The notes beneath the pieces are model-generated. The model made no database searches and was not told where the DNA came from. It saw only the letters and a program-made list of their open reading frames with translations. From Gemmatimonadota bacterium (GTDB taxonomy: Bacteria > Gemmatimonadota > Gemmatimonadetes > Longimicrobiales > Gaopeijiaceae), in the NCBI GenBank assembly GCA_022823365.1, contig JAJDXG010000006.1:1-55862 (forward strand): DNA of 55,862 nucleotides, in the 5' to 3' direction. Below are positions 34,251-53,945 of this stretch, piece by piece. A program made the position numbers and the translations under genes. The number at the start of each line of letters is the position of its first letter. The stretch's first letter is position 1.

Positions 34251-36050
34251 CTAGTTTCGGCGGGGATGCTTCCCAACCACCGGCAGCGCGCCGGATCGCG
34301 ACCCCGTGCCGCGGGTGCTGTCGGCAGGCGTCGTCCAATCGGTATCCTCGACGGCGGACCGGAAGGACGCCACGGCATCGTCGATACCGTCCGCATCGAA
34401 GCGAAAGTCGGCGGGTATCGACCGATGGCGTGAGTTCACGCGGGCCAGAAGCGCCTTCCTCCGGCCGTCAACGGTGTCCTCATTCGTCCCGGAACGCGAA
34501 GCGGCCTCGCGGAACGCCCTCAACTCGGCTTCCATGAAGTCCTCGAACCCCTGAAGCACCTTCTGCTGACGGGTGAACTTCTCGAAGTGATGGCCCAGCG
34601 CTGCCAGACGGATCGCCTCCGGCAGCATGGAAGGATGGTCCTTCGACACCTTCGCGATGTACCTGCTGTAGGCGGGGATCTGGCTCGGCGAAAGCCGCCG
34701 GCGCACCGTCATCAGCCCCAGATAAAGCGCGCTCCTGCTCACGGCCGGGGTCAGGTGGGGCAGCGGCTTCAGGTGCTTCAGCAAGGTCAGGCAGCGCTCG
34801 AAGTAGTTCTCGAGGGACGGGTCGTAAACCGTGGAGATCACGCGCAGGTAGCCCTTGAGCAATGTGTCGGCATCCATCTCCGGCACGAAGTTCAGGGCCG
34901 TTGCGCTGGTGCCGACGGGGACGTCCAGGAGCCGGCCTTCCGACTGCAGCCGCGTGTAGAGATCCGTTCCCTTCAGCGCAGTCAGCAACCCGACCAGCGC
35001 CATGGGAATGCCGGCGTCCTGAATGAACTGGATCTGGGCGTCGAAGACCTGCTCATCGTCTCCGTCGAGCCCGAGGATGAACCCGCCCATCACCTGCATT
35101 CCCCTGCGCTGGATCTTTCGGACGGCGTTCAGCAGATAGTCCTGTTCGCGCTTGCTGATGTTCTGCGGTTTCTTCGTGATGGCGAGCGCCTTCGGGTTCG
35201 GAGTCTCGATGCCCAGGAAGACGCCGTTGAAGCCGGCCTCGATCATTGCGTCCATCACCGAGTCCATTCGGGCCAGGTTCACGCTCGCTTCGGTGAACAG
35301 CTGGAAGGGATACCGGTGCGCCCGCTGCCACTCCGCGATCGCCGGCAGCATGTTCAGGGCGTCGCGCTTGTTGCCGATGAAGTTGTCGTCGACCAGAAAC
35401 ACATAGCCTCGCCAGCCCAGCCGATAGAGAGCCTCGAATTCCTCGACCATCTGTTCCGGCGACTTGGTCCGGGGCACGCGGCCATAGAGCTTGGTAATGT
35501 CGCAGAACTCACAGTCGAACGGGCAGCCGCGCGAGAACTGCACGCACATCGCGTGATAGGCCCCGAGGTCGATGAGGTCGAAGCGCGGGACGGGCGTCCG
35601 CGTGACATCGGGCTTTCGCGGCTCGCGATAGATGGTTCGTGCCCTGCCTTCCTCGAGATCCCGCAGGAACCGGGGGAAGGTTTCCTCCGCTTCGTCGAGC
35701 ACGAAGTAGTCGACTCCCGCGATCTCCTGATGGAATGATGTCGGATAGGGCCCTCCCGCGACCACGGGAACGCCGGCGCGGTTGCAGCGCTCGATCACCT
35801 TCCGCAGGGACTCCCTCTGCACGATCATGGTCGACGTAAACACCATGTCGGCCCAATCCAGATCGGAGTCCCTCAGGTCCGACACATTCATGTCGACGAC
35901 CCGAAGATCGTATTCCGGGGGAAACATCGACGCGACGGTCAGGAGTCCGAGCGGGGGAAAGGCCGCCTTCACGCCGAGCATCTCCAGGGCGTAGTTGATT
36001 CCCCAGTAGGAGGGCGGATAGTCGGGGTAGACCAGCAGGGCATTGCGCAT
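34251..36050 (-). CDS. Cobalamin-binding radical SAM protein with DUF4070-like domain
   Basis: 599 residues from the ATG at 36050. Residues 1-140 are a B12-binding Rossmann domain (FPPLGLLTVASMFPPEYDL, PVVAGGPYPTSFHQEIAGVD) without a DxHxxG motif. The radical SAM core begins at 165 with the cluster cysteines C176, C180 and C183 in SRGCPFDCEFCDI. The part after about 385 (LVGLLTALKGTDLYTRLQSE, ALNFVPEMDADTLLKGYLRV) matches DUF4070. That architecture is shared by hopanoid C-2 methylase HpnP and other lipid-modifying radical SAM enzymes, so C-methylation or C-C bond chemistry on an alkyl chain is the leading guess. Last gene of the PKS operon, two bases after the upstream stop. Confidence 0.87.
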   Translation of the reverse strand: MRNALLVYPDYPPSYWGINYALEMLGVKAAFPPLGLLTVASMFPPEYDLRVVDMNVSDLRDSDLDWADMVFTSTMIVQRESLRKVIERCNRAGVPVVAGGPYPTSFHQEIAGVDYFVLDEAEETFPRFLRDLEEGRARTIYREPRKPDVTRTPVPRFDLIDLGAYHAMCVQFSRGCPFDCEFCDITKLYGRVPRTKSPEQMVEEFEALYRLGWRGYVFLVDDNFIGNKRDALNMLPAIAEWQRAHRYPFQLFTEASVNLARMDSVMDAMIEAGFNGVFLGIETPNPKALAITKKPQNISKREQDYLLNAVRKIQRRGMQVMGGFILGLDGDDEQVFDAQIQFIQDAGIPMALVGLLTALKGTDLYTRLQSEGRLLDVPVGTSATALNFVPEMDADTLLKGYLRVISTVYDPSLENYFERCLTLLKHLKPLPHLTPAVSRSALYLGLMTVRRRLSPSQIPAYSRYIAKVSKDHPSMLPEAIRLAALGHHFEKFTRQQKVLQGFEDFMEAELRAFREAASRSGTNEDTVDGRRKALLARVNSRHRSIPADFRFDADGIDDAVASFRSAVEDTDWTTPADSTRGTGSRSGALPVVGKHPRRN

Positions 36051-36052
36051 GA

Positions 36053-38572
36053 TCAAACCCCCGACTCCCGGAGTCCTCTCTCCGAGACGAAATCGCGATA
36101 CCGGGCGAATGCGTCGTCGATCTGCTCGCGCGTCAGCCCGAAGTCCGCGATGTCGTACCGGTGACGCTTCTCGGTGCGGCGCCTCTCCGCCTGTTCCGCC
36201 AGCCAGACGTCCATCGCGGTCACGGCCGCGGGCTCGAGCGTCCATCCGAAATAGTCGTAGATGCGGCCCACGACCGCCAGCGGGTCCTGGACCAGATCGT
36301 AGTAGCTGACATCCATCCAGCGGTGCTCGAGCTCCGGGTGCGAGTTCCGAAAGCTCACCGCCCGATCGAGAAGGTGGCTCATCGCGCGCAGCTGCTCGGC
36401 CCCAAGTACCTCCGCCGGGCGCGGCTCGCTGATGTTGGCGCGGATCCGTTCGACCAGGCTGCACCAGGATCCCATGAACTGAACGGGTTCCCGGTGCGTC
36501 TGGATGAAGAGGGCGTCCGGATAGGTCTCAAACAGAGCTTCGAGTTCCCTGAGATGAGTCGGCATCTTGAAAAGCCATTGGCCCTGCATGCCGGGATGGC
36601 TTTGCCTGCGCTGATAGTGGTAGTGCTGCATGACCCGGCGATGGTGCCGGTAGGCCTCCCGCGAGCCGTTTTCCTCCAGCCAGCTATCGTACTGCGGGAT
36701 GTGATATCGGGCTCCGAACACCCTGGCTTTGAACGACAGCCGAAGGATCGGGATATCCTCCTCCGGCTCGTCGGTAGAGATCTGGTGGACCCCGGAAAAG
36801 GAGTCGATGATGCCGGAGGCCTCGAACACGTCGGCGGCCAGCGCGCGCCGAGGATCTGCCGTCGTGCCCGCGACCCTCGCATAGTCGCCGCTGGGGATCA
36901 CCGGTTCCACGTACTCGAAGGCTCGCAGCGCCCAGAATCTGCTGTCCCGGGCCATGAGGCGGTGGAGGTAGGTTGTCCCGGTGCGGTTGATTCCCGCGAT
37001 GAAAACAGGTTGAACGACGTTCTGTCGGCCGATCTCCGGGTACCGCTGCCGTTCGGCGGCCAGCTCGGCGTTGTTGCGCAGCATCCGGCACATGTCGAAG
37101 GTGACGTGACCGATCCGGGTCTCGAGCAAACCCGCTTCCGGTGATTTCAATGCCTCCACAAGCCGCCCCAGTCCTTCGAGCATCCACTCCGGGTAGGTCG
37201 AATCGAAGCACAGGCCGCGATCGTCCGCGTAACGCCTTGCCTGCCTGAGCAGGTGCTCAAGCTTCAGGCGCCGGCGGGGAGTGGGGTGCGGCCATGCCTC
37301 TGGATGTTCCCTGACCCATCGGTTGTGACGAACGTACCTCGTGAGGGGACCGGGCCAATCGATGGTGACCGGACAGTCTTCACGAATCGCGCGGTCGCTC
37401 ACGGGCAAGGAGGTGGCCGAGTCGCTGCCCTGCAACCAGTAGGGGCCGAATTGATCGAACAGTGCCCAGTATCGGGCGAGGGGCGAGGCGGCACCCCGAG
37501 CCTGGCAGGCCCGCTTGAAGGCCTGATAGGAAACCTCCGGATAGTCCAGACCGAGTTCTTCAACGCGAACGGTGGTGTATGACGGGGTTGGATTGCAGCA
37601 GTTGTAGATCGTGGAGCGACGCTCCGGGTTGAACGAGATCTCGGTGCAGATACGGCTCAGTGTGTCGACGGGGTCGCTGTTTGACTGCAACGTGAATCCC
37701 CGTGGAATCATCCCCACATCCACCACCGCCGCGAAGAGGCGCTGGGTGATGTTGGCTGGCTCCGCGTACCCGGTCGAAGCCATGCTCGTCTGGGCCAATC
37801 GGAAGATCCCGACAGGAAGACCGACGACATTGCCGAAGAGGATCGCCTGTTCGGCTACGAGCTTGCTCCATGGATACCCGAGGAGGCCAAGCGGAAACGT
37901 TCGCTTCATGCTCGAGAGGTCCGGCTGCACCTGGTCGCCAATGCGGCTGTCCCGGTACTCGCGCGCAAAGAAGCAGAAGTACTCGGGGAAGATCCCCATC
38001 GTCGAAGCGTAGAAGAGATGCTTGTAGCGCGTATGCAGACACAGATCCAGCACGTTTCGGATGCTGAACGCGTTGACGCGGCGAATGGCGCGGTAGGACG
38101 AGGAGAGACTCAGGGTCGCTGCGAGATGGTATACGGCGTCGATCTCCTCGCAGAGTACGCGAAACCGGGAGTCCGACAGCCCGAAGCGCGGTTCGGCAAC
38201 ATCCCCGGCGTGCACGCGAATCCGTGGAGCGAAGCCGTCGTCCCAGACTTCCGCGTGCTCCATGTTCGCCCTCAGCCGCTCGAAACCCTGCTCGGGACGG
38301 TCGCCGCGCACGATGCAATGCACGGTGAGCCGCGAATCCCGCGAGAGCAGGTCGCGCACCAGGAAACGACCGAGGAAGCCGGTCGCACCGGTGACGAGGA
38401 CGTGGCGGAAGTCGTTGGGCGAAACAGCCTTGGCGAGCGGCGCACGGGTGACCGCCTCGCGGACGAAGCCGCGCAGCGCAGTCAGATCGATTTGACAGTG
38501 GGGCGGCAGGCTGCCCGTCAGCGGCGGTATGCGCCGCCGGGTTGCCGTCGCCGGACCGCCGCCCTGGTTCAA
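36053..38572 (-). CDS. Thioester reductase–sulfotransferase fusion protein
   Basis: 839 residues. Residues about 50-420 form an NAD(P)-dependent thioester-reductase (NRPS/PKS R-domain, SDR) unit with TGATGFLG (61-68), the catalytic Ser/Thr in FYASTMG, and Y233-x3-K237 in GYPWSKLVAEQ. Residues about 450-830 form a sulfotransferase with the PAPS 5'-phosphosulfate loop GINRTGTTYLH (527-537) and the 3'-phosphate region THREPVQFMGSW. It should release an ACP-bound chain as aldehyde or alcohol and sulfate a hydroxyl. Its ATG overlaps the PKS stop as ATGA. I know no characterised protein with exactly this fusion; it could also act as two independent tailoring steps. Confidence 0.88.
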   Translation of the reverse strand: MNQGGGPATATRRRIPPLTGSLPPHCQIDLTALRGFVREAVTRAPLAKAVSPNDFRHVLVTGATGFLGRFLVRDLLSRDSRLTVHCIVRGDRPEQGFERLRANMEHAEVWDDGFAPRIRVHAGDVAEPRFGLSDSRFRVLCEEIDAVYHLAATLSLSSSYRAIRRVNAFSIRNVLDLCLHTRYKHLFYASTMGIFPEYFCFFAREYRDSRIGDQVQPDLSSMKRTFPLGLLGYPWSKLVAEQAILFGNVVGLPVGIFRLAQTSMASTGYAEPANITQRLFAAVVDVGMIPRGFTLQSNSDPVDTLSRICTEISFNPERRSTIYNCCNPTPSYTTVRVEELGLDYPEVSYQAFKRACQARGAASPLARYWALFDQFGPYWLQGSDSATSLPVSDRAIREDCPVTIDWPGPLTRYVRHNRWVREHPEAWPHPTPRRRLKLEHLLRQARRYADDRGLCFDSTYPEWMLEGLGRLVEALKSPEAGLLETRIGHVTFDMCRMLRNNAELAAERQRYPEIGRQNVVQPVFIAGINRTGTTYLHRLMARDSRFWALRAFEYVEPVIPSGDYARVAGTTADPRRALAADVFEASGIIDSFSGVHQISTDEPEEDIPILRLSFKARVFGARYHIPQYDSWLEENGSREAYRHHRRVMQHYHYQRRQSHPGMQGQWLFKMPTHLRELEALFETYPDALFIQTHREPVQFMGSWCSLVERIRANISEPRPAEVLGAEQLRAMSHLLDRAVSFRNSHPELEHRWMDVSYYDLVQDPLAVVGRIYDYFGWTLEPAAVTAMDVWLAEQAERRRTEKRHRYDIADFGLTREQIDDAFARYRDFVSERGLRESGV

Positions 38573-41500
38573 CGGCTGCTGGCGGGCACCACTCCCGCTC
38601 CGCCGGCTGTCTGTGAAGCTCCTCTCCCACCGGCCGATGGCATTCCGGAACCGGCCATCCGGCCGCCGTCGACCGTTGCGCGCTCACCGTTGGGGAAGTG
38701 ATCCTCGGGCTGGTTCGCGAAGGGTGAGCGGCGCCTGCGCACCCGCTGCCGGAACTCATCGCCAGCACCCGCTCCTTCATCTCCCCCGCCTGCGATCTCT
38801 TCCTCGGCGTCCGAGTCGGCTCCGTGCACGATGGCGTGCGCGAGGGAGAGCGCTGACGCCGTGGTCATAAGCTCGAGCGCACTGACCTGGTGGTTGAACT
38901 GCGTCTGAACGAACGCGCCCAGTTCGGCGACCGAGATCGAGGTGAGCCCGAAGCTCGAGAGCGGTTCGGAGACATCGCCCTCGTCGTGACCGCACAACTC
39001 CGCGACCTTGGCGGAGATCTGCGCCATGACACCCTCAACGGTCAACTCGCCGCCGGCGTCCACCTGGAACGCCGCCTGATTGGACAACAGGCGTCCGTTG
39101 CGCATGTAATCGGGAGAACGGACCGTCCACGGAGGGGCCGCGAACAGTGCGGTCACGAGATGATCGTGGTCCGCCATGGTGCGCATGGCGTAGTCGAGGT
39201 TCGCGATCGCGAAGTTGGCGCTGACGGTGGTCATGCCGGCAGCCCGCATCATGCGCATGACGTGGAGGCTCCGAGCGGCCATCCCGACCTCGGTCACCGG
39301 GCCCAGATTGTACGAAAAACCCGGGAGGCCGCGCCTGCGTCGCCACGCAGCCAGCCCGTCGAGGAAGCCGCTGGCGCCGCTGTAGTTGACCTGTCCCAGG
39401 TTTCCGAAGGTCGATGCGATCGAGGAGAACAGCACGAAGTAGTCGAGATCCCGGTCGATGGTGGCGTGATGAAGGTTGAGCGCGCCCATGGCCTTGGGCG
39501 CGAACACCCTGGCCAACGAATCGGGCGACGTGTCCAGGAAAGACCGGTCCTCCAGCGTTCCGGCGAGGTGGAACACGCCCTTGAGGGGTCGCTCGAGGCC
39601 CGCGATACAGCGGTTGACATCCGCCGCGTTCCTCACGTCCCCCGGTACGATGTCGATCTCGTAGTCGTGGGCCATCTTGGACAGCGTCGTGATCTGGCGG
39701 ATCCACTCGACGTCGCGGCGCCGCGCGGGGTCACGGTCCATCAGGGTCAGATGGCGCGCACCGGCAGCGATCAGGTAGGGCACGAAGCGCAGGCCGAAGC
39801 CACCCAGGCCGCCAGTGACCAGATAGGTCGCGTCCGGATCCAGGAAGGGACGGGTGTCCGCGATGCCGAATCCCCGGTCCGCGGGATCGGCCGGAGCCTG
39901 AAGAACCAGCTTGCCCTGGTGCTGTCCGGTCGTCATCAGGCGAAGCGCCTTCGCGTAGTCGCGGTATGGAAAAACCGTCAGCGCTGGGGGCGCGACCGCC
40001 CCTTCGTCCATGAGGTCGATGCAGGCCTGGGAGAGAACGTGCGACAGTACCGGGTCGTCGAGCATCAGACGGTCCACATCGATCGCGGCAAAGCGCAGAT
40101 TCTTGCGGAAGACGCGCATGCTGAGAGAGTTGTCGGTGTAGATGTCGACCTTTCCGATCTCGCAGTGCCACCCGGAAGGACGCAGCGACTCGAGGCAGAG
40201 CGCGATGTGGTGGCCGGCGAGAGAATTCAATACGACATCGACGCCCTCGCCGCCCGTCGCCTGCATGAGATCGTCGTACCACTGGTGGCTGTGCGAATCG
40301 AACGCTCCGCGCACGCCCATCTCGAGCAGCCGGGCACGTTTGCTGTCGTTGCCGGCCGTCGCGAAAACCTCCGCCCCGACGTGCCTGGCCAGCGCGATGG
40401 CAGCCTGTCCGACACCTCCCATCGCCGAGTGAATGAGGACTCGCTGGCCCTTTCTCAGACGTGCGAGATGAATCAGCGAATAGTATGCGGTCACGTAGAC
40501 GGAGAGCGCCGAGGCGGCCTCTTCCATGCTCAGCCCGGCTGGCTTCCGGAATGCGAGGTGCTCGTTTACCACCACGCGGTTCGCGATGCAGCCGCCCACC
40601 GTAAGCGCCACCTCATCCCCGACCTTCAGGCGCGCGACCCCGGAGCCAGCGCGCCGAACCACCCCGCTGGCCTCGATGCCGACCTCACGCCCCAGCGCCG
40701 AGCGCTCGTAGGCCATGGCCGGCAGGAGCCCAAGCGTGACCATGACGTCGCGAAAGTTGAGCGCGGCCGCGCCGACCTCGACTTCCACATCCGACGGCCC
40801 CAGCCGCGGAAGCTCGTATGTGGTCATCCGGAGCCCGCTCACCTGGCCGGGATTGTCCAGGCGAAGCCGATAGGGCGGTTCCTCACCATCGGGCACGAGC
40901 GGCGAGCGCTGCCGGACGCTGACGATGCGCGGAACCCATGGGCGCGCCTCTCTGATGGCCAGTTCGCGCTCGCGCAGATCGCAGCGGCTGAGACGGGCCA
41001 GGACCTCCAGGTCATCCTTCGAGCCGATGTCCACAAGCCTGAAGTCGATCCGCGTGTCCTCGGCGAGGAGTTCCAGGGCGATGCTGCGCACCGCCCCCCA
41101 GAGCGCGCTGCCGCGCGGATCGTCCACGTCGCAGACGGCGCCGCGCGTCACCACCGTCAGGCGGCAGTCACGGGTCGCGCTCTCCAGCCGGAACGGCGCC
41201 AGGGCCTGAAGAAACGCCACGAACTCCCAGATGGCGCGCTCGCCCGTGGGGTCTATCGGATCCGTACCGACAAAGAAGTCGATCGCTTCCAGATCGGCCG
41301 CTCCCGGCGATTCGTCCAGCCAACTGAAATCGGTTGTCTGGATGGTCGACCAGGGGACGTGGTCAACCGCCGGCGAGTCGAGGAGGTCGAGCCAGTTCGC
41401 CACCAGGCTGCCCGGTTCGCCGATCACCCAGCGGGAGCCCGGAGTGGCGGCTGCTCGTCTGGCTTCGGGCTCGTCCGCAGTCTCACCCTCGCCACCGGCG

Positions 41501-44500
41501 CCGCTTCCCCCGGTCGCGTCGAAGAGGTCGGGGGGGGCCTGCAGCAACGTCGCGCGTGACCCTGCGTGGATCGTAGACCAGCCGGCGCCGGCTTCGACTG
41601 CATCCCCTTCGCCATGGCGGACGAGCGCCAGACCGCCGCCGACCACGAGCCGATGAACGAGCGCCCACTGCTCGGGCCCATAACCGCAGGCTTCCTCATG
41701 CAGGAGCACGAGCTCGGCGGCGGCGGGTCGCAACAGCCCTGAATCCATTTCGAGTTCGCGGGCCCCGGTGGAACACGCATCGAGCGAGTCGAACCGAATC
41801 GCGGCGTCCTGGTGGTTGAAGGCGTCGTGGAGCGCGCGGGTGTGCTCCTCGTCCGCGCCGAGGATCCAATACTCGGTCTGGGCGTCCTGGTCCGACAAGC
41901 GTGACAGACACCGGTTCAGAATCGCCTCGGTGGGCTCACGCCGGCCCGCGATCTCGATCACGCGGCAGGCGTACCGGTGGCCGAAGGCACCCTCTTCAAG
42001 CGCCGCAATCAGCGCGGCGGGATCGACTTCGCCCTCCCGGACCGCGTCCTCGACCGGCGCCGCCGGCGACACGAACTTGGGTTGCCAGCGAATCAGGTGC
42101 TTGCTGTCCGGGACATCGCTCCAGCGGGGGTTGCTGTTGAAGGAGTGGTATTCTCCGATGTGGGCGATCAACTGTCCGGTGGCGTGATCGTAGAAGCTGA
42201 GGCGGCCGATATAGAGCTCGCCGAGCGGTTTGTTGTACTGGCCGCGCTCATCCACGTCGAACCAGTCCCCGGTGTCGACCAGGAAGCAGCTGATGCGCGG
42301 CCCCGTCGGGGGGCGCAGGAAGGTGATGTCACAAGCCCGCTGCGGCATCGAAAAGAAATCCGGCAGCCGCATCAGGTAGCGCAGGAAGATCTGCAGCCCG
42401 CCGTCGGTCAACGGGGGATACAGCAGATAGCCTTCCTCCCGGCCGGAGGCCCACAGTTCGCCGTCCACTTCGATATCCAGTAGGAGGTCCGTCGAACCGG
42501 AGTCCATGTCGATCTGGCGGACGCTGCGGAATTCGGGCCCGAACTCGAAGGCATCGCCCACGACCGCTTCGATGTGGTCGTAGAACTCCTCGCCCGTCGC
42601 GAGGGGTTGGGGATCGAAGTCGGAAGCCAGAACATCGTCGAGCGTCGGGAGGGTGTCGATGGCGTAGTCTTCGTCCACCCGGCGCACCCTGCCACGGCAG
42701 TGCAGGGTGCCCTCGTCGTCGTTCTCGAAGGAACGCGTGGAGATGGTGAAGGTGAACTGGTCGGGAGCATTCGGAACCGGGAACAGGGCCGTCTGTAGCC
42801 GCACCGGCGTCTTTCCGACGGGCGTATGCTGCAGGAACTCGATCTCATCGATGTGGACGGGATCCCCGGCGAACGCCTGCAGCAGCAACTCGATGTAGCC
42901 GGCGGCGGGAATGATCGGCGCCCGGTGGACGCGATGGTCGGTCAGCCAGGGGAAGTCGCTTTCGGATAGCCGCGACTCGAACAGAATGTGGTCGCAGGCG
43001 ACCCGGTGCCCGACGAGCGGGCCGTGCGAGTACTCTCCGCGCTGGACGAACATCTCGTCGTCGACCAGATCGTCGTGGTTCGTCGTCTGTTCCTGCGGGT
43101 GTCCGGGGAGGAGGTGGGCGATGGGCTCCGGCTTCGGGTACTGGGACGCGAAGTCCAGCTCGACGCCGGCGCGGTACAGCGCCCCCAGCGTCCCCTGGAA
43201 GCCGAGGCACACGTCCTGGCCCTTCATGAGTGTGGGGATGCAGGCCGGAACGGACGCGCCGCCCTCCAGGCACTGCCGGATGAGCGGCTGCAGAGGGCCG
43301 TGCGGCGCGATCTCCAGGACGGCGTCGGGTCGGTGATCCCGTTTCACCGTCTCCACCGCGGCCGCGAAGCGAACCGGCTCCCGGATGTTGGACCACCAGT
43401 ATGCGGCATCCAGACGGTGCTCCGCATCGCCGGTGACCGACGACACCATGGGAACATCGGCTTCGAAGGCGCATTCATTCAGGAAGGACAGCGAAGCGAT
43501 GACATCGCCGTGCAGCGGATCCATGGCCGTGGAGTGGAACGCGATGTTCCCGGGGATCAGGCGATTCTGAAGGTCGCGGCGGTCCAGCTCCGCCATGACG
43601 GGCTTCAGCGCGGACTCCTTGCCGCATATTACCGTGTTGGCGGGCGAATTCTCGCAGGCGATCTCAACCCGGGCGGGTCGGTGGTTTCCGGACTGGAATG
43701 AAACGCCGAGCTCGCTCAGCACGTCCTCCACGCCCGGGCGGTCGAGGCCGATCGCCAGCATGCGTCCGGAGCCGGCCACCCGTTGCTGCAAAGTCGCGCG
43801 GTGGTAGACCAGACGCGTAGCCTCGGCAAGCGAAAGCGCCCCGCAGGCGTAGGCGGCGGCTACCTCGCCGGAGCTGTGTCCGACAACGCAAGCCGGCTGT
43901 ACGCCCCAGGTGGAGAGCAGTTCCACCAGTGCGCACTGAATCATGAAGATCGAGGGCTGCGCCAGGCGGACTTCGTTCAATTCCTCCTGGCTCGCCTTGA
44001 AGCAGGCCTCCCGCAGCGACACTTCCGAATGCTTGCGCCACTCCTCCTCGATGGCGTCGACCACACGGCGGAAGACCGGGTCGGCGTCGTAGAGCGCCCG
44101 CCCGCATCCCGCCCATTGCGTACCCTGCCCGGAGAACACCATGGCCACACGGCGCTCGCCCTCCTCGATGGTGGACACCGGAGACGGCTCTTCCGCGAAC
44201 GCGTCCAGCACCTCGGCGAGGTTGGCCCGGTCTCGCACGGCGAACGCAGCTCTCACCGCAAACTGGCTGCGGCGCCGACCGAGATTGCCCGCCAGCGTGT
44301 AGAGGTCGACCTCGCGCTCGTCGAGAACCTTCCGCAGGCTCCGTGCACTCTCCACCAGAGCGTTCGTGGTGCGCGCGGACATCGGTATCATGTACCCGGC
44401 GTCGGGGGCCAACGGTACCGACCACACACTGGGTCGCTGCGGGCGGTACTCCCTCACTACGCAGTGCCCGTTGGCGCCGCCGAACCCGAAGGAGTTGATC

Positions 44501-45768
44501 CCGACCACGACCGGTTGGTCGGGAAAGGGCTCGCAGGCGGTCTGCACCTGCATCGGGCAGCTGTCGAAGTCGATCTCGAGGTTCGGCGCCAGGAAATTCT
44601 TCGAAATCGGGGCATAGGTACGGTGCTGCATCATCAGGATGACCTTGAGAAGCGCGGCGCTGAACGCCGCCGCTTCCAGGTGCCCCACGTTGCTCTTCAC
44701 ACTTGCTACGCGTAGCGGGACCTCGCGCTCGACGCCCCCGAACGCCTCGGCGATCGCGTTGCCCTCGATGCGGTCGCCGACAACGGTGCCGGTCGCGTGC
44801 GCTTCGATATAGTCGAAATCCTCCGGTCCCAGGCCCGCTCGCCGGCAGGCCGTGCGCATCAGTTCGACCTGCGAGTGGCGGGTCGGCGCGGTGATATAGC
44901 GCCCCTGGGCCAGACCCACCGCGTCGTCTGCCGTCCCTGCGGTGTTGACCGCCGTGGCCTCGATCACCGCAAAGATGTGGTCCCCATCCCTTTCGGCCGC
45001 TTCCAGTGGCTTGATCGCGAAGACGAATGCCCCTTCCGCGCGCACATATCCGTTGGCGTCGGCATCGAAGGAATGACACCTGCCGTCCGGACTGATCACG
45101 CCCAGGGCATTGAACGAAGCGCTGCACCGGGCCGAACCAAGGTAGGTGGCGGCCCCGACCAATGCCTGATCACAGTCGCCCTGCCGTATCGCGTTCACCG
45201 CCGTGTGCAGTGCGGTGAGGGACGCCGAGCAGGCCGTGGAGCACGCGACCGACGGCCCCATGAGGTTGAGGTGGTAGGATATGCGGTTCGCCAGCATCGA
45301 GGCGTCGATGCTGAGGATGGAGAACTCGTTGGTGCCGTAGAGCGCCCGCCAGTTGGCCGTGGACGCGACCTGGGCGCCGATGAAGACGCCGGTCGCGCTG
45401 TTGCGCAGCGCGTTCAGATCCCACCCGGCGTGCTCGCAGCTCTCCCATGAGCAGCCGAGCAGCATCCGGATCTGCGGATCCATGTAGGCCATCTCATTGC
45501 GCGAGACCCCGAAGAGGCTGGGATCCATCCGCTGCTCCCCGTCGTCGCGTATCAGACCCTCGTACGCGCTCCCGAACCGTCCCGGGCCCGAGAATCCGCC
45601 GATCGGCTGATAGCCCCGGCCGTAGCGGTCGATGACCGGCTCCCGAACGATCTCGCGCCTGCTCAGGAGATCCCAGAAGTCGTCATCGGTGCGGATACCC
45701 CCCGGCATCCGGTAGGCGTATCCGACGATGGCGACGGGTTCTCTCGACCTGTCACTGCCTGAGTTCAT
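38569..45768 (-). CDS. Type I polyketide/fatty-acid synthase, KS-AT-DH-(degenerate MT)-ER-KR-ACP
   Basis: 2399 residues from the ATG at 45768 (GGGAG upstream); an extension to 45864 is possible. KS 10-440: C180 in CSTACSASL, H324 in EAHATGT, H363 in KSNVGHLEA. AT 545-850: S632 in GHSSGEV, and IAFH at 742-745, which favours malonyl-CoA. DH 905-1210: H945 and D1122. Degenerate methyltransferase about 1225-1400. ER 1640-1955 with the NADPH loop SAMGGVGQAA. KR 1980-2200 with TGGLGGFG and Y2129. ACP about 2245-2315 with phosphopantetheine Ser2277 in GLTSIS. A low-complexity tail follows. Full reductive loop implies a saturated, possibly iteratively built alkyl chain. No thioesterase; the next gene supplies reductive release. 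Confidence 0.95.
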   Translation of the reverse strand: MNSGSDRSREPVAIVGYAYRMPGGIRTDDDFWDLLSRREIVREPVIDRYGRGYQPIGGFSGPGRFGSAYEGLIRDDGEQRMDPSLFGVSRNEMAYMDPQIRMLLGCSWESCEHAGWDLNALRNSATGVFIGAQVASTANWRALYGTNEFSILSIDASMLANRISYHLNLMGPSVACSTACSASLTALHTAVNAIRQGDCDQALVGAATYLGSARCSASFNALGVISPDGRCHSFDADANGYVRAEGAFVFAIKPLEAAERDGDHIFAVIEATAVNTAGTADDAVGLAQGRYITAPTRHSQVELMRTACRRAGLGPEDFDYIEAHATGTVVGDRIEGNAIAEAFGGVEREVPLRVASVKSNVGHLEAAAFSAALLKVILMMQHRTYAPISKNFLAPNLEIDFDSCPMQVQTACEPFPDQPVVVGINSFGFGGANGHCVVREYRPQRPSVWSVPLAPDAGYMIPMSARTTNALVESARSLRKVLDEREVDLYTLAGNLGRRRSQFAVRAAFAVRDRANLAEVLDAFAEEPSPVSTIEEGERRVAMVFSGQGTQWAGCGRALYDADPVFRRVVDAIEEEWRKHSEVSLREACFKASQEELNEVRLAQPSIFMIQCALVELLSTWGVQPACVVGHSSGEVAAAYACGALSLAEATRLVYHRATLQQRVAGSGRMLAIGLDRPGVEDVLSELGVSFQSGNHRPARVEIACENSPANTVICGKESALKPVMAELDRRDLQNRLIPGNIAFHSTAMDPLHGDVIASLSFLNECAFEADVPMVSSVTGDAEHRLDAAYWWSNIREPVRFAAAVETVKRDHRPDAVLEIAPHGPLQPLIRQCLEGGASVPACIPTLMKGQDVCLGFQGTLGALYRAGVELDFASQYPKPEPIAHLLPGHPQEQTTNHDDLVDDEMFVQRGEYSHGPLVGHRVACDHILFESRLSESDFPWLTDHRVHRAPIIPAAGYIELLLQAFAGDPVHIDEIEFLQHTPVGKTPVRLQTALFPVPNAPDQFTFTISTRSFENDDEGTLHCRGRVRRVDEDYAIDTLPTLDDVLASDFDPQPLATGEEFYDHIEAVVGDAFEFGPEFRSVRQIDMDSGSTDLLLDIEVDGELWASGREEGYLLYPPLTDGGLQIFLRYLMRLPDFFSMPQRACDITFLRPPTGPRISCFLVDTGDWFDVDERGQYNKPLGELYIGRLSFYDHATGQLIAHIGEYHSFNSNPRWSDVPDSKHLIRWQPKFVSPAAPVEDAVREGEVDPAALIAALEEGAFGHRYACRVIEIAGRREPTEAILNRCLSRLSDQDAQTEYWILGADEEHTRALHDAFNHQDAAIRFDSLDACSTGARELEMDSGLLRPAAAELVLLHEEACGYGPEQWALVHRLVVGGGLALVRHGEGDAVEAGAGWSTIHAGSRATLLQAPPDLFDATGGSGAGGEGETADEPEARRAAATPGSRWVIGEPGSLVANWLDLLDSPAVDHVPWSTIQTTDFSWLDESPGAADLEAIDFFVGTDPIDPTGERAIWEFVAFLQALAPFRLESATRDCRLTVVTRGAVCDVDDPRGSALWGAVRSIALELLAEDTRIDFRLVDIGSKDDLEVLARLSRCDLRERELAIREARPWVPRIVSVRQRSPLVPDGEEPPYRLRLDNPGQVSGLRMTTYELPRLGPSDVEVEVGAAALNFRDVMVTLGLLPAMAYERSALGREVGIEASGVVRRAGSGVARLKVGDEVALTVGGCIANRVVVNEHLAFRKPAGLSMEEAASALSVYVTAYYSLIHLARLRKGQRVLIHSAMGGVGQAAIALARHVGAEVFATAGNDSKRARLLEMGVRGAFDSHSHQWYDDLMQATGGEGVDVVLNSLAGHHIALCLESLRPSGWHCEIGKVDIYTDNSLSMRVFRKNLRFAAIDVDRLMLDDPVLSHVLSQACIDLMDEGAVAPPALTVFPYRDYAKALRLMTTGQHQGKLVLQAPADPADRGFGIADTRPFLDPDATYLVTGGLGGFGLRFVPYLIAAGARHLTLMDRDPARRRDVEWIRQITTLSKMAHDYEIDIVPGDVRNAADVNRCIAGLERPLKGVFHLAGTLEDRSFLDTSPDSLARVFAPKAMGALNLHHATIDRDLDYFVLFSSIASTFGNLGQVNYSGASGFLDGLAAWRRRRGLPGFSYNLGPVTEVGMAARSLHVMRMMRAAGMTTVSANFAIANLDYAMRTMADHDHLVTALFAAPPWTVRSPDYMRNGRLLSNQAAFQVDAGGELTVEGVMAQISAKVAELCGHDEGDVSEPLSSFGLTSISVAELGAFVQTQFNHQVSALELMTTASALSLAHAIVHGADSDAEEEIAGGGDEGAGAGDEFRQRVRRRRSPFANQPEDHFPNGERATVDGGRMAGSGMPSAGGRGASQTAGGAGVVPASSR

Positions 45769-45863: not shown

Positions 45864-45913
45864 TTGATATGAGGATCGCGTGGAATGTCGCAAAACTACA
45901 AGATAATGTCGCA
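45864..45913 (-). promoter_or_regulatory. PKS promoter with paired 9-bp direct repeats
   Basis: Minus strand: TTGCGA (45893-45888) and TATCAA (45869-45864), 18 bp apart, form a candidate promoter about 90 bases before the PKS ATG. The 9-mer TGCGACATT occurs twice on this strand (45913-45905 and 45892-45884), start-to-start 21 bp, i.e. two helical turns; the promoter-proximal copy overlaps the -35. This is the geometry of an activator or repressor bound on one DNA face. A near-identical pair lies at 47786-47815. Confidence 0.5.
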
Positions 45914-45998
45914 GCCGCGGTCGGAAACCGACAGGCGCGGAACTCATCGAAGGCGACCGATCCTGCTCCGTCGGGCCTCGGTTCTGTATGTTCCGAGC

Positions 45999-47060
45999 AT
46001 GTCGACCCAGGTATCCGTCCGGCGTCGCCGCCCGGTTCTCGTCACGGGCGGAAACGGCTACGTCGCATCCTGGCTGGTCAGGAGGCTGCTCGAACGCGGT
46101 TTCGACGTCCACGCGACGGTGCGCGACACGGGGGATCCCGCCAGGACCGGCCACCTGAGAGCCGTCGCGCGGCGGCGTCCCGGAAAGCTGAGCCTGTTCG
46201 ACGCCGATCTCCTGGACGCCGGCGGGTTCGACCGCGCAATGGCGGGCTGCCGCATCGTCTTCCACACGGCCTCGCCGCTGATCGTGCGCGACGTGGTGGA
46301 TCCCGAAGGCGACCTGGTGCAGCCGGCTGTCCGCGGCACCCGCCACGTCCTGGAAGCCGCGAACCGGACTCGCTCCGTCCGGCGCGTGGTGCTCACCTCA
46401 AGTATCGTGGCCGTCTACGGCGACGCAGCGGATCTCGAGGGAACCGGGGCCGACCGATTCGACGAGAGCCATTGGAACTCAACCAGCAATGTGCGCCACC
46501 AGCCCTATTCCTACTCCAAGACGCTGGCGGAGCGGCTGGCATGGGAGATGGCGGACGGGCAGGACCGGTGGGATCTGGTAGCCGTGAACCCCGGCCTCGT
46601 GCTCGGACCGGGCCTTGGCCGCAACACGAGCGCCGAGGGCGTCCTGATCATGCGCGACCTCGGCAACGGCTACTATCGCTTCGGCGCCCCCGAACTCGAA
46701 TACGCCATCGTGGATGTGCGCGATGTCGCGGAGGGTCACCTGCGCGCCGGATTGATCCCGGAGGCCCGAGGCCGCCACATCCTGGTCAGTGAGACGCTGA
46801 GGCTGATCGAAATCGCTTCGATTCTGCGCCGTCACTTCGGCGACGCCTATCCATTCCCGCGTCAAACCGTGTCCAAAGTGGCTGCGCTGATGCTCGCGCC
46901 CCGACGGCGAATCCCGCAGGCCGTGGCGAGGCGCAACGTCGGCTATCCGCTGAGGTTCGACAACCGATACGCGCGAGACGCTCTTGGAATGACCTTCCGC
47001 CCGGCGGCGGAATCAATCGTCGACCACTTCCGGCAATTGCTCGACGACGGCCTGGTCTAA
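45999..47060 (+). CDS. NAD(P)-dependent epimerase/dihydroflavonol-reductase-like SDR
   Basis: 353 residues from the ATG at 45999; an in-frame start at 45885 would lie inside the repeat element and is less likely. Extended SDR: nucleotide loop VTGGNGYVASWLVRR, catalytic Ser in VVLTSSIVAVYG, Y-x3-K in YSYSKTLAER, with VNPGLVLGPGLG after it, as in dihydroflavonol/cinnamoyl-CoA reductases and 3-beta-HSD-like enzymes. It reduces or oxidises a carbonyl/hydroxyl of an unknown substrate. Divergent from the PKS with a shared 230-bp regulatory region, so involvement in the same pathway is plausible but unproven. Confidence 0.88.
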   Translation: MSTQVSVRRRRPVLVTGGNGYVASWLVRRLLERGFDVHATVRDTGDPARTGHLRAVARRRPGKLSLFDADLLDAGGFDRAMAGCRIVFHTASPLIVRDVVDPEGDLVQPAVRGTRHVLEAANRTRSVRRVVLTSSIVAVYGDAADLEGTGADRFDESHWNSTSNVRHQPYSYSKTLAERLAWEMADGQDRWDLVAVNPGLVLGPGLGRNTSAEGVLIMRDLGNGYYRFGAPELEYAIVDVRDVAEGHLRAGLIPEARGRHILVSETLRLIEIASILRRHFGDAYPFPRQTVSKVAALMLAPRRRIPQAVARRNVGYPLRFDNRYARDALGMTFRPAAESIVDHFRQLLDDGLV

Positions 47061-47335
47061 CCGCCCTCCACGACCCGCTTTGCGGTTTCGTCGGCCAACT
47101 CGAACATGCCGGCCAGAATCTGCTTGCGCTTGAGCTTCAGTTCTTCGACTCGTGCCCAGAGAGCCGCGCGGATCGCCTCGGCCGCGGCCTTGCGCACCTC
47201 CGGGGCCAGATTGGTGTCGTTCCGGAACTCATATTTCTCGACCGCGAAATCCGCGATGTCAAGGATGTTTTCGCCCACGATGTTGAAGTCGACGTCGACG
47301 GAGCGCTTGATGGTGATCGCCCTCTGTTCGCTCAT
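47057..47335 (-). CDS. Hypothetical 92-aa protein downstream of STAS gene
   Basis: 92 residues from the ATG at 47335 (GGGAGA upstream; an extension to 47371 is possible). Predicted alpha/beta start (ITIKRSVDVDFNIVGENILD) then a mostly helical, charged C-terminal half (RAALWARVEELKLKRKQIL) that could form a coiled coil. No family recognised. It follows the STAS gene after 57 bases on the same strand, so it may be a partner in the same signalling circuit. Its stop overlaps the convergent SDR stop. Confidence 0.6.
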   Translation of the reverse strand: MSEQRAITIKRSVDVDFNIVGENILDIADFAVEKYEFRNDTNLAPEVRKAAAEAIRAALWARVEELKLKRKQILAGMFELADETAKRVVEGG

Positions 47336-47392: not shown

Positions 47393-47734
47393 TCAGGAGC
47401 CGCCGGCTGCCTCGATGGCAGTGGCCTGTGACTCGTGCACGGGGATCAACTGGTCGAATCCGCTGATGGCCACGACCTCGCGATTCAACTGGGTGAGGGA
47501 GCAAAGGGCGAACTTCCCGCGCCCGACCCTCCTGGCCAGGATCAGGCATGCCCTGAGGCCGGCGCTGCTCATGAACGCGACCTTCTCCATGTCCACAATC
47601 AGGAAATCGTCGTCCGTGCTCAGGCCTTCCTCGACAAGACTCCGGAACTCGTCCGCGCTCGCGTTGTCGATTCGGCCAAGCACCGAAGCGATCGCAACGC
47701 CTCCCTCGCGTCGCCACTTCACGTCGATTCTCAT
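47393..47734 (-). CDS. STAS-domain anti-sigma factor antagonist-like protein
   Basis: 113 residues, a single STAS domain (SpoIIAA/RsbV type). The phosphorylatable serine region is VAFMSSAGLRACLIL, preceded by the typical strand FLIVDMEKV and first strands VAIASVLGRIDNASADEF. Such proteins bind and sequester an anti-sigma kinase when unphosphorylated, freeing a sigma factor, or act in partner-switching toward c-di-GMP or other outputs. No RsbW-type kinase or sigma factor is in the window. Upstream lies a 21-bp-spaced repeat pair like the one at the PKS promoter. Confidence 0.88.
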   Translation of the reverse strand: MRIDVKWRREGGVAIASVLGRIDNASADEFRSLVEEGLSTDDDFLIVDMEKVAFMSSAGLRACLILARRVGRGKFALCSLTQLNREVVAISGFDQLIPVHESQATAIEAAGGS

Positions 47735-50243: not shown

Positions 50244-51695
50244 TCAATGACGTCCGGCGCCCGTTCTGTAACGATGCAGACACGGTGTGACTGCCTGTCT
50301 GTAACGATGCGGAAACAAGCCAACTCGGAGGCACTGGCCGCGCAGCGGTTGTGGGACGATGGCGCGCCTACCGCCGGTCCCGGTCAGGGTCGCGGCCAGC
50401 GCTCGGGCCCGCGCAAATCGTCCCGTCAGGCCCGGGCGGCTCTCCCAGTTGGCAGTGACGTGCAGACCCGGCGGCAGCCGGAGCTCGGGGAGGGCCGACC
50501 ACGACGTGTCCCATGCGGGCATGGACGGACGCGCGACTCCCAGTGGCTCGGCGCCGTACCCGGTGCAGCGCTCGAATTCGGAGGCGGCCCGGACGCGCAG
50601 CGCCTCGTTCGTGCGGGCCTGCATCAACCTTCCGCGTGTGGCGGCGGAGTTGCTCATCGAGCCGGATGGCGCGCCACGCGGGTGGGCCGGATGGGCAAGA
50701 TAGGCGGTGTACACCCCGTTGCGGTCGGGTCGCCCCCCTTCCCCACCGAACAGGCAGTGGCTGAAGGTCACGCCGCGCAGGGCGCGCGGCTCCGCCAGCG
50801 ATACCTGGAAGCCGATCCCGTGAAGGTCGGTGTCCGCGCGCAGGTGCACGACCGCGAGCGGATTGTAGCGGAGGCTGGCGATGCGGGTGGACGCGTCCGG
50901 TGCGATCCCGCGGAGCAGCCGGGCCGCCACCGGAGCCGGGACCGCGAGCACCACCTGCTCCGCCGGCAGCGTCTCGCCGTCGAGCACGACCGACCAGCCG
51001 CCGGTTCGTGGTTCGATCGAGCGGACCGGGGCGTTCAGGCGCACCCGGTCTCCGAGGGCACGGGCAAGCGCGCGGGGCAGGCTATCCATCCCGTCGGCGA
51101 AGGAGCAGATGCGGGGCGCGCGCGGGGCGCGGCGGAAGAGGCGGGAGAGCACCAGGCTCCGCCCGATCCCCATATCGCGCAACAGTCCGCCCAGCGACAG
51201 TCCCACGACCATTTCCCCGGGGTCGGTCCCGTAGAGACCTCCATAGAGTGGACCCACGACATGCTCGTACAGCTCGCGCCCCAGCTTGCGGGAGAAGAAC
51301 CCGGCCACTCGCTCGCCTTCGCGTGCTCCGGACGTGAGGGGCTCGAGCATCGCGCGGAGTTTCCCGCGCCAGCTTACGGCATCGGACCCCAGCAGACCCC
51401 CCATGGAAAGAGGTACACGGCGCAGCCTGCCGTCCCGGTAGATGAAGAAGTCGAGGTCCCGGGGCGCCAGGATGAGCGAGTCGCCGAGACCCAGCTCGTC
51501 CACCAGAGCAGCGAACGGCGCGGTGAGGCGGGCCCGCTGGGGGCCGTTCTCAAGGAGCAGCCCGGCCACGCGCTTGCTGCTGACGATTCCGCCGGGACGG
51601 TCCTTGGCCTCGAACACGACGCATTCGCGCCCCCTCCGGACCAGCTCGCGGCCCAGGGCGAGACCGCTCATGCCGCCGCCGACGATCGCGATCAA
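50244..51695 (-). CDS. hemY: Protoporphyrinogen/coproporphyrinogen oxidase, FAD-dependent (HemY type)
   Basis: 483 residues from a TTG at 51695 that overlaps the hemH stop as TTGA, so translation is coupled; the frame upstream belongs to hemH's region. FAD-binding loop IAIVGGGMSGLALGRELVRR and following Glu in VVFEAKDRPGGIV; LYGGLYGTDPGEMVVGLSLG is the PPO signature. It oxidises protoporphyrinogen IX, or coproporphyrinogen III in the coproporphyrin-dependent route, using O2. The last 35-40 residues (after ALAATLTGT) are Arg-rich and unlike the family, including a repeated HRYR encoded by a 13-bp DNA repeat. Confidence 0.9.
   Translation of the reverse strand: MIAIVGGGMSGLALGRELVRRGRECVVFEAKDRPGGIVSSKRVAGLLLENGPQRARLTAPFAALVDELGLGDSLILAPRDLDFFIYRDGRLRRVPLSMGGLLGSDAVSWRGKLRAMLEPLTSGAREGERVAGFFSRKLGRELYEHVVGPLYGGLYGTDPGEMVVGLSLGGLLRDMGIGRSLVLSRLFRRAPRAPRICSFADGMDSLPRALARALGDRVRLNAPVRSIEPRTGGWSVVLDGETLPAEQVVLAVPAPVAARLLRGIAPDASTRIASLRYNPLAVVHLRADTDLHGIGFQVSLAEPRALRGVTFSHCLFGGEGGRPDRNGVYTAYLAHPAHPRGAPSGSMSNSAATRGRLMQARTNEALRVRAASEFERCTGYGAEPLGVARPSMPAWDTSWSALPELRLPPGLHVTANWESRPGLTGRFARARALAATLTGTGGRRAIVPQPLRGQCLRVGLFPHRYRQAVTPCLHRYRTGAGRH
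50265..50310. repeat. 13-bp direct repeat at the hemY 3' end / upstream of porin gene
   Basis: TCTGTAACGATGC occurs exactly at 50265-50277 and 50298-50310, 33 bp apart start-to-start (about three helical turns). It lies in the non-conserved tail of hemY and 160-210 bases upstream of the porin start on the same strand, so it may be an operator for the porin gene rather than coding sequence under selection. Confidence 0.5.
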
Positions 51696-52831
51696 GGAGG
51701 GTGATGGGCGGTGGGCGGGCGGGCCGAGCCGTGATCGGGCCGGGAGCCTGATGCGGCCCTGGAGTCCGGCCTGATGTACGGGCTCGGGGCGAGGTCGCGC
51801 GCGCCATTCGTGCACCAGGTGCCCGGTACCGGCCGGCAGCGGCAGGGCGCCAGCGCCAGATCCTCCGCCGAGGACTGGCCCAGCGCGTGACCCACGAGAT
51901 CCGCGAGCACGCCTGCGAAGCGGGGATCGTCGTGGGGCACCGGCACGCGGTACATCTCCTTGCCCATCGCCTCCACCGCTTCACGCAGCTCGCGGTCCAG
52001 TTCGTCGAGGGTCTCCGACTGCTCGTGGATGAAACTGACCGCGTCCACCACCAGGCGCCGCTCCGCCAGCGCCTCGATGCGCTCCTCGTTGTCCGGCCAA
52101 GTCCAGGCAATGCGGCGGTTGGTGTGGTTCTGGAAGCCGACGGCGAATCGTTCGCCGACACCCAGCGCTTCGGCGATCTCCCCGCAGTGCTCTTCGACGT
52201 AACGGTCGTAGCGGTTGACGTCGAGGATGTATTTGACGGGCGTCCCGTGGGCGGAGAAATAGAGAATCGTGTCCGGATCCGAGAGGTCGAGCGCGTTCTC
52301 GCGGACGAAGTCGCGGATATGTTCGGCTCTGAGCGCCCGATATCCCGGATGCCGGTGCCAGCCGCCGACGCCGATGAAGGGCACGTCCCAGTCCAGTTCG
52401 TCGAGGGCGGCGCGAACCGAGTCGAGGGCGGCGACGGTCGTGGAATGACCGCACATGGGGTAGACCGGGAGTCCCACCAGCACATCCGCCCGCCCCTCAC
52501 GCACGCTGGCAACGCCGTCGCGGATGAAGGGCGGCGTGAACTGGAAGACGGCCTCGACGCGGGCATCCATGCCGCGCGCGGTCAACGTTGCCCCCAGTGC
52601 ATCGGCCTGGGCGCGGGCCTGAGTGTCCAGGGGCGAACCGCCGATGGCGCGGTAGGCTTCCACGAGGTGGGGCGCCCGGGCGGCGGCGAGCTGGGCGGCG
52701 CGGGCGCGCGCGGAGCGGTCGCTTTCCAGATCGGCATTCTGAAGGAAGATGCGCTCGAGGAAGGGGGTAACCTCTTCCAGCACCGGTTCGGCGGGTTCGC
52801 CGAAGTTGATCAGAAGGACCGCGATTCTCAG
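51692..52831 (-). CDS. hemH: Ferrochelatase, probable CTG start
   Basis: 379 residues if translation begins at CTG 52831, which has GGAGG seven bases upstream and places RIAVLLINFGEPAEP at the N-terminus as in the family (normally M-x-VLLVNFG). The only ATG in frame (52930) overlaps hemE and adds Gly/Ala filler. Core motifs: QFTPPFIRDGVA, the active-site His region LVGLPVYPMCGHSTT, and YFSAHGTPVKYI; substrate chelation uses that His and a Glu near HEQSETLDELD. It inserts Fe2+ into porphyrin. The last 45 residues are a Pro/Arg-rich tail. Stop overlaps hemY start (TTGA). Confidence 0.9.
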   Translation of the reverse strand: MRIAVLLINFGEPAEPVLEEVTPFLERIFLQNADLESDRSARARAAQLAAARAPHLVEAYRAIGGSPLDTQARAQADALGATLTARGMDARVEAVFQFTPPFIRDGVASVREGRADVLVGLPVYPMCGHSTTVAALDSVRAALDELDWDVPFIGVGGWHRHPGYRALRAEHIRDFVRENALDLSDPDTILYFSAHGTPVKYILDVNRYDRYVEEHCGEIAEALGVGERFAVGFQNHTNRRIAWTWPDNEERIEALAERRLVVDAVSFIHEQSETLDELDRELREAVEAMGKEMYRVPVPHDDPRFAGVLADLVGHALGQSSAEDLALAPCRCRPVPGTWCTNGARDLAPSPYIRPDSRAASGSRPDHGSARPPTAHHPP

Positions 52832-52895
52832 GGCGTCACCTCCGGTTGCCTGCCCGGGGCCTGCTGCCCGGGCCCCTCCATCCGTCCCATGGGAA

Positions 52896-53945
52896 CTAGT
52901 CGGCGCCCGTCCGGCCGCGCTCGTGGACATGGTCAACCAGGCGGGCGACCTGGTCGGGGTCGGTGCGCCGGTCGATCCCATGCCCCAGGCTGAAGATGTG
53001 CCCCGCCAGACCCTCGGCTTCCGCGAGCACGGCATCCGCCGCGCGCCTGAGCGCATCCGGGCGCCCGAAGAGTTCGGCGGGATCGAGGTTGCCCTGCAGG
53101 GCGCGCCCGCCACCCAGCAGCCGGTCGGCTTTCGAGAGCGGCAGGGTCCAGTCGATGGCGACCACATCGACGTCGAGTCCCCGCATCGAGCGCAGCAGCG
53201 GCCCGCCGCGATTGGGAAAGTAGATGATCGGGCGATCCGTCGCGGCCCGGACGGCCGCGAACGCCCGCGTCAGCACGGGGTGGATGAAGCGCATGTAGGT
53301 GTCCGGGCCGAGCAGGCCGATCCAGGAATCGAAAAGCATGACCGCGTTCGCGCCGGCCTCCGCCTGGGCAACCAGATAGCGGGCCATCGAGCGTCCGAGC
53401 GTGTGGAGCAGCGCTCGCGAGGCCTCCGGCTCGCGGCGCAGGAAGCTGCGGGCGGTCATGAAGTCCTTGGAGCCGCCTCCTTCGACCAGGTAGCAGAAGA
53501 GGGTGAACGGAGCTCCGGCGAAGCCGATGAGCGCGGCCTCCGGGCGGAGTTCGGCGCGTACCGCGCGGATCGCCTCCAGCACGAACGGAACCCCCTCCTC
53601 CGGGACCAGTGCGCGCACGGCGCGCGCAGCTTCGGGCGTGCGCACGGGATGAGAGAGCACGGGACCCGGCGCGAACTTCACCTCGACGCCCATCGGATCG
53701 AGCGGCGTCATGATGTCGCTGAAGAGGATGGACGCGTCCATCGCAAAGCGCTCCATCGGTTGCAGCGTGATGCGCGCCGCGATTTCCGGAGTGCGTGTCG
53801 CCGTTATGAAGTCGACCTCGCGGCGTAGCTTCCGGTATTCCGGCAGGTAGCGCCCCGCCTGGCGCATGATCCAGATGGGCGTATGGGGTACCGGCCGGCC
53901 GCGCGCGGCACGCTCGAAGATTGTGGCGTTGTCGGATCCGTTCAT
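52896..53945 (-). CDS. hemE: Uroporphyrinogen decarboxylase
   Basis: 349 residues, normal length. It decarboxylates the four acetate side chains of uroporphyrinogen III to give coproporphyrinogen III, in the cytoplasm. Signatures: PIWIMRQAGRYLPEYRKLR with the substrate-binding Arg residues, ILFSDIMTPLDPMGVEV containing the catalytic Asp, GFAGAPFTLFCYLVEGGGSK, and C-terminal IFSLGHGIDRRTDPDQV with the conserved His. ATG overlaps the hemL stop as ATGA. Followed by hemH after a 64-base gap with the chosen CTG start. Confidence 0.96.
   Translation of the reverse strand: MNGSDNATIFERAARGRPVPHTPIWIMRQAGRYLPEYRKLRREVDFITATRTPEIAARITLQPMERFAMDASILFSDIMTPLDPMGVEVKFAPGPVLSHPVRTPEAARAVRALVPEEGVPFVLEAIRAVRAELRPEAALIGFAGAPFTLFCYLVEGGGSKDFMTARSFLRREPEASRALLHTLGRSMARYLVAQAEAGANAVMLFDSWIGLLGPDTYMRFIHPVLTRAFAAVRAATDRPIIYFPNRGGPLLRSMRGLDVDVVAIDWTLPLSKADRLLGGGRALQGNLDPAELFGRPDALRRAADAVLAEAEGLAGHIFSLGHGIDRRTDPDQVARLVDHVHERGRTGAD

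Follow-up and report, generated by a model that had tools for sequence, protein, structure and literature searches.

The swf gene cluster of marine sponge bacteria in a Gemmatimonadota genome, with an accompanying small protein family and evidence for exchange of single genes

The window analyzed here, i.e., a stretch of 55,862 nucleotides of Gemmatimonadota DNA, carries three consecutive genes which, on the evidence of their sequences, almost certainly constitute a Gemmatimonadota copy of the swf cluster (swfA-swfB-swfC) of marine sponge bacteria. The cluster is not new, having first been described and named in 2013 by Della Sala et al. from sponge symbionts (PMC3908369), and the window represents a further copy. 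What is new is the set of swf loci from approximately 65 genomes, together with the swapping of genes between them, a family of small proteins (protein E) that is locked to swf, and sulfate-supply genes nearby; the interest of the locus lies in these last three aspects.

Identification of the swf cluster

The positions and minus-strand orientation that an earlier note had given for the three open reading frames were borne out, from the ATG of the PKS gene at 45768 to the stop codon of the radical SAM gene at 34251 (Table 1). The overlap between swfA and swfB had been described as ATGA and is here corrected to TTGA, swfB starting with TTG, and the spacing of two bases between swfB and swfC (TGA-TC-ATG) was found as described. 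Pfam searches also agreed with the gene contents initially read from the sequence, returning a complete reducing PKS module without a thioesterase for SwfA (ketoacyl-synt N and C, Acyl_transf_1, PKS_DH_N, ADH_N/ADH_zinc_N representing the ER, KR and PP-binding), a reductase-sulfotransferase fusion in a single protein for SwfB (NAD_binding_4, residues 60-307; Sulfotransfer_3, residues 522-780), and B12-binding, Radical_SAM and DUF4070 domains for SwfC. No C-methyltransferase domain was found in SwfA by Pfam, and a thioesterase domain is absent from all three Swf proteins.

Table 1. Features of the swf locus and its upstream region, in window coordinates
Feature	Position	Strand	Basis
swfA: single-module reducing PKS/FAS, KS-AT-DH-ER-KR-ACP, 2399 aa	38569..45768	-	Pfam, Swf motifs
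swfB: thioester reductase and PAPS sulfotransferase fusion, 839 aa, TTG start	36053..38572	-	Pfam, NCBIfam
Thioester reductase (R) domain of SwfB	37484..38404	-	TIGR01746, residues 57-363; motifs; fold
Sulfotransferase (ST) domain of SwfB	36233..37009	-	PF13469 above cut-off; motifs; fold
swfC: B12-binding radical SAM enzyme with DUF4070, 599 aa	34251..36050	-	Pfam
Protein D: STAS-domain protein, 113 aa, upstream of swfA	47393..47734	-	PF01740, 2.8e-12
Protein E ('SwfE', POR_0546-like), 92 aa, upstream of swfA	47057..47335	-	without known family
NAD-dependent epimerase/reductase (SDR), between E and swfA, opposite direction	45885..47060	+	PF01370

At the level of the genes, the window has the features by which a swf cluster is recognized, namely a swfA of one module, a swfB whose R and ST domains are contiguous, and a swfC, optional in the family, with the CX3CX2C motif. 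The proteins of 2399, 839 and 599 residues are encoded in the same order as in cluster PS11G3, where SwfA, SwfB and SwfC comprise 2349, 839 and 585 residues (PMC3908369). Furthermore, the SwfA signature motifs listed in that study, DPQ(I/V)R, HATGT, IAFH, GHSSGE and QCALVEL (PMC3908369), are each found in the window protein, the first as DPQIR. The earlier note knew of no described pathway with such a three-part set and regarded the locus as a novel, undescribed lipid pathway, a reading whose sole argument is that the product is not known. It retains next to no probability, since swf has been published and named (PMC3908369) and was recognized in later surveys, in Nitrospirota, Latescibacterota and Acidobacteriota (PMC9426513) and in 'Thalassonella' (PMC10227082). 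In the literature searched, which excludes most subscription journals, no report of swf in Gemmatimonadota was encountered.

Two other candidate identities were rejected using NCBIfam models: the MAS/Pks2 mycobacterial-sulfolipid system, for which SwfA scores 909.5 bits against an equivalog cut-off of 2400 bits, and a hopanoid-modifying system, for which SwfC scores 54.9 bits against the HpnR cut-off of 650 and has no match to HpnP. With respect to the surroundings of the locus, homologues of the SDR gene accompany swf in 11 of the fetched loci, all of the checked ones belonging to Gemmatimonadota, and this gene is considered accessory to the cluster. Overlapping open frames on the minus strand (window 50244-53167) encode a flavin amine-oxidase family protein and a ferrochelatase, possibly a heme biosynthesis pair, which is near swf but apparently unrelated to it.

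Distribution and gene order

A search of 84,980 species genomes with the SwfB fusion returned approximately 65 near relatives, 49-99% identical, the titles of which name Gemmatimonadota, Nitrospirota, Acidobacteriota, Latescibacterota, Pseudomonadota, Rhodothermota and Verrucomicrobiota. Nearly all of these derive from bins whose names we take to denote marine sponge metagenomes; sponge microbiomes harbor two widespread PKS families, one of which is swf. Within the genus of the window, swf is present in ten of eleven genomes, the exception being a genome that is 67% complete, while none of the other genera sampled among the 59 nearest relatives has it. A wider sample of 395 Gemmatimonadota genomes placed it in additional genera of this family, as well as in a single genus belonging to another. 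Three loci titled Gammaproteobacteria (L064, L113 and L116) match, in their swf genes, the window's genus-mates G010, G009 and G008, respectively, which shows that the titles given by submitters can be wrong. Carriage of swf on plasmids was considered and rejected, as none of the plasmid records spans the fusion.

Sixty-five loci were fetched, and in each of the 53 from other genomes in which both SwfA and SwfB are largely covered the two are adjacent, indicating that the arrangement did not arise by chance. The position of SwfC is variable: it follows SwfB in most Gemmatimonadota loci, separates A from B in Nitrospirota, Latescibacterota and Acidobacteriota, and has been moved, inverted or lost in many Pseudomonadota. 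Among 13 genomes without SwfC beside swf, it was located elsewhere in five and not found anywhere in eight. Since SwfA and SwfB are always neighbors wherever the contig permits a view while SwfC is moved or missing, SwfA-SwfB makes up the core, with SwfC as an optional tailoring enzyme.

One genus-mate (L027, G006:C180, 842-14856) carries a swf copy that is complete, with the order A-C-B, but has diverged to 55-65% identity. Just upstream of it lies part of a second swfA, spanning 622 residues, which shares 88% identity with that of the window and is delimited by the contig edge at one side and a stop codon at the other.

Exchange of single genes between lineages

The trees of the three proteins conflict. 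In the SwfA tree the window's genus falls inside the Gemmatimonadota with the order A-B-C (support 99-100), grouping with 11 other A-B-C loci with a support of 100, whereas for SwfC a grouping of the genus with the same 11 loci is rejected (AU p = 0.0003). A SwfC grouping that holds the Gemmatimonadota together with the Rhodothermota row L095 is not rejected by the AU test. In the SwfB tree, L064, a member of the window's genus, sits with another group, and monophyly of the genus is rejected (AU p ~2e-77). That all three genes share one vertical history was therefore rejected for SwfC and SwfB, and single genes have been replaced within an otherwise conserved layout. Individual swf genes have thus been swapped between lineages, with binning errors and the use of quick trees as caveats to this reading. 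Such swapping points to exchange of the cluster between unrelated bacteria that share one host.

Upstream proteins D and E

Proteins D and E are encoded directly upstream of swfA on the same strand, so that the cluster extends beyond the coordinates initially assigned to it. Protein D is conserved upstream of swfA in other lineages, and in 28 loci of several phyla E shares the strand of swfA and precedes it by 36-1500 nt; D and E are joined into a single open frame in three Acidobacteriota loci. The association of E with swf is very strict: among 390 Gemmatimonadota genomes E was found in 39, all of them swf carriers, of which 38 are exactly the 38 that possess the SwfB fusion, while in the other one (G298) the start of a swfA lies next to E at a contig end. 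Similarly, among 16 Latescibacterota genomes E and SwfB are found in the same three. In the Pseudomonadota swf genomes searched, no E was found. D and E belong to the swf cluster in most non-pseudomonadotal lineages.

No credible match to E was found in Pfam, NCBIfam, PHROGs or the PDB; its weak matches (best E-value about 0.005) are scattered and were dismissed as chance. In several loci a Xan_ur_permease gene precedes the D-E pair, like ORF17 in PS11G3, and a STAS protein beside a transporter of such a fold class recalls, by analogy, the SLC26/SulP anion transporters. We tentatively propose, at slightly below even confidence, that outside the Pseudomonadota the full cluster reads permease-STAS-E-SwfA-SwfB-SwfC and may act as a self-contained sulfated-lipid island with its own anion-transport/sulfate-supply module, E being the founder of a new swf-only family and the parts being exchanged singly across phyla.

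Additional copies of these genes were also observed. The window's genome contains a second STAS and protein E pair (G000:C38:173527-173781; L167:9525-9788), which adjoins genes for a short-chain dehydrogenase and a protein of the prolyl oligopeptidase type; the 14 kb analyzed there contain no PKS. Five copies of E are present in a Verrucomicrobiae chromosome (OX638380.1; L115 and G414:C1), three before swfA and two at 2.12 Mb.

Sulfate-activation genes

A gene of the CysN-CysC type (ATP-sulfurylase/APS-kinase) occurs near swf in six loci (L057, L063, L065, L066, L068 and L097), against a chance expectation, by our own estimate, of ~0.3 of 60 windows of 22 kb, which assumes about one such gene per ~4 Mb genome; the four Nitrospirota loci among the six are not independent of one another. 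The presence of these genes beside swf supports real sulfation. Furthermore, genome G112 possesses a second D-E pair followed in a row by CysD and CysNC.

This set is located on contig C67 of G112 (L168/L181), ~35 kb from swfB on one contig, is followed by a sterol-methyltransferase-like gene and GMC-type oxidoreductase genes, and possibly represents a second sulfated-lipid cluster. In the window's genome there is no sulfate-activation gene beside swf, and the genome does encode an APS kinase: the only one found (G000:C21:7824-10591) lies ~1.6 kb from a second Sulfotransfer_3 gene.

Proposed functions of the Swf proteins

The closest solved relative of SwfA is mycocerosic acid synthase. Its AT domain bears the IAFH motif, which has been read as malonyl type (PMC3908369), and the unusual motif GHSSGE. 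The ACP of PS11G3 has been shown to be phosphopantetheinylated by an Sfp-type PPTase (PMC3908369), and the host genome of the window encodes a PPTase of Sfp size (243 aa). SwfA would act iteratively with malonyl-CoA to build a mostly reduced acyl chain on its own ACP, and the lack of a thioesterase fits with reductive release of this chain.

Such release would be provided by the R domain of SwfB, in which the motifs TGATGFLG, T191 and YxxxK were identified, the Rossmann loop being kept in 56 of 62 SwfB homologues and the Tyr/Lys pair in 61. The ST domain displays GINRTGTT, KxPxHL and THRxP-x5-SW, and at least 58 of the 62 sequences retain its PAPS loop, its conserved His and an Arg-Ser pair spaced by eight residues (R694/S702). 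In an AlphaFold2 model of SwfB (mean pLDDT 86), the fold of the R domain matches that of MxaA (4w4t, TMt 0.80) and the fold of the ST domain matches STF1 (2zq5, TMt 0.84). The R domain is thus predicted to release the chain as an aldehyde and then as an alcohol, although R domains may stop at the aldehyde, and the ST domain would transfer sulfate from PAPS to the chain hydroxyl, generating a long-chain primary alkyl sulfate.

The two domains might also act on different molecules, the sulfated group then being a sugar, a sterol or a second hydroxyl rather than the chain end, while R would release, for instance, a long-chain aldehyde destined for further processing. The ST family indeed has many acceptors, and a sterol-methyltransferase-like gene follows D-E-CysD-CysNC in G112, yet all lineages retain the R-ST fusion, even at ~50% identity, which favors consecutive steps on one substrate and leaves separate substrates unlikely. 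A second alternative, raised in the original description of swf (PMC3908369), is that the sulfate serves as a leaving group, so that the ST-activated hydroxyl is eliminated to yield a terminal alkene or another product, as in the curacin and olefin synthase systems. PKS-linked sulfotransferases are known, and one, from Planktothrix, was among the plasmid matches. However, those systems pair the sulfotransferase with a thioesterase and a beta-hydroxyacyl chain, whereas swf is devoid of a thioesterase and has its ST fused to a reductase, and the DH and ER domains of the module render a retained beta-hydroxyl less likely; this route is accordingly judged quite improbable.

For SwfC, the CxxxCxxC motif is present in all 40 homologues inspected. 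The enzyme grouped with methyltransferases in the 2013 tree (PMC3908369), and we consider a methylase to be an even call. The structural data leave room for another type of B12 radical SAM enzyme, such as a dehydratase or one catalyzing C-C coupling, as the solved structures nearest to the model (mean pLDDT 61.5, i.e., of low confidence) are AprD4, a diol dehydratase, and the methylases MgmA and TsrM, with no clear winner, and the predicted fold does not separate methylase from dehydratase. Set against the published tree, a non-methylase appears a somewhat less likely option, albeit one to be taken seriously. Where present, SwfC would accordingly contribute an optional radical modification, probably C-methylation.

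We infer the catalytic steps and the product alongside what was directly observed, namely cluster identity, intact motifs, conservation and the association with sulfate genes. The mechanism as a whole, i.e., chain synthesis by SwfA, alcohol formation and sulfation by SwfB and optional modification by SwfC, is reasonably probable. D and E, joined in some lineages by the permease and the sulfate-activation genes, would be accessory, most likely in anion transport, sulfate supply or control. That the product is sulfated is rather probable, and we lean, by a lesser degree, towards the terminal alcohol as the site of the sulfate; a long-chain alkyl sulfate is the most likely product. The 2013 authors proposed conversion of the terminal carboxylate into a primary sulphate (PMC3908369), and the intact R and ST motifs, the fold matches and the sulfate genes agree with this idea and strengthen it, without proving it. 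The sulfated alcohol suggested in the earlier note gains from the same evidence, although precedence for the idea belongs to the 2013 study. When the complete PS11G3 cluster was expressed in E. coli BAP1, no new compound appeared (PMC3908369), and parts missing from an expression of swfA, swfB and swfC only may be a reason for this. The sulfate-activation genes and the swf-specific small protein together offer a testable prediction, that of a sulfated long-chain lipid.

Comparison with known systems

Mycocerosic acid synthase and Pks2 share the KS-AT-DH-ER-KR-ACP layout of SwfA, but the AT motif of SwfA is the malonyl-like IAFH and the mycobacterial partner genes are absent from swf. The terminal R domain of myxalamid MxaA resembles the N-terminal half of SwfB in fold and catalytic motifs, yet it ends a PKS-NRPS assembly line and is not fused to a sulfotransferase. 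Mycobacterial STF1 and STF9 share the fold and sequence family of the C-terminal half of SwfB, but are stand-alone enzymes. The sulfotransferase-thioesterase arrangement of curacin and olefin synthase differs in that no thioesterase follows the swf ST.

The closest counterpart of the locus is PS11G3 from the Plakortis simplex metagenome (PMC3908369), with which it shares a KS-AT-DH-ER-KR-ACP SwfA, an 839-residue R-ST SwfB, a B12 radical SAM SwfC and their order. Homologues of D and E, i.e., a STAS protein (ORF18) and a 92-residue POR_0546-like protein (ORF19), also lie directly upstream of swfA in PS11G3, outside the operon as defined at that time (PMC3908369). PS11G3 differs in having a permease gene before the STAS gene, which is not seen in the window, and in that ORF19 directly adjoins swfA, whereas in the window the reductase gene of opposite direction intervenes. 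Two further swf clusters of the same study likewise possess SwfA and SwfB: PSA11D7, which is without SwfC, and POR_0547-0550, which has the order A-C-B and a swfA divided into two parts (PMC3908369).
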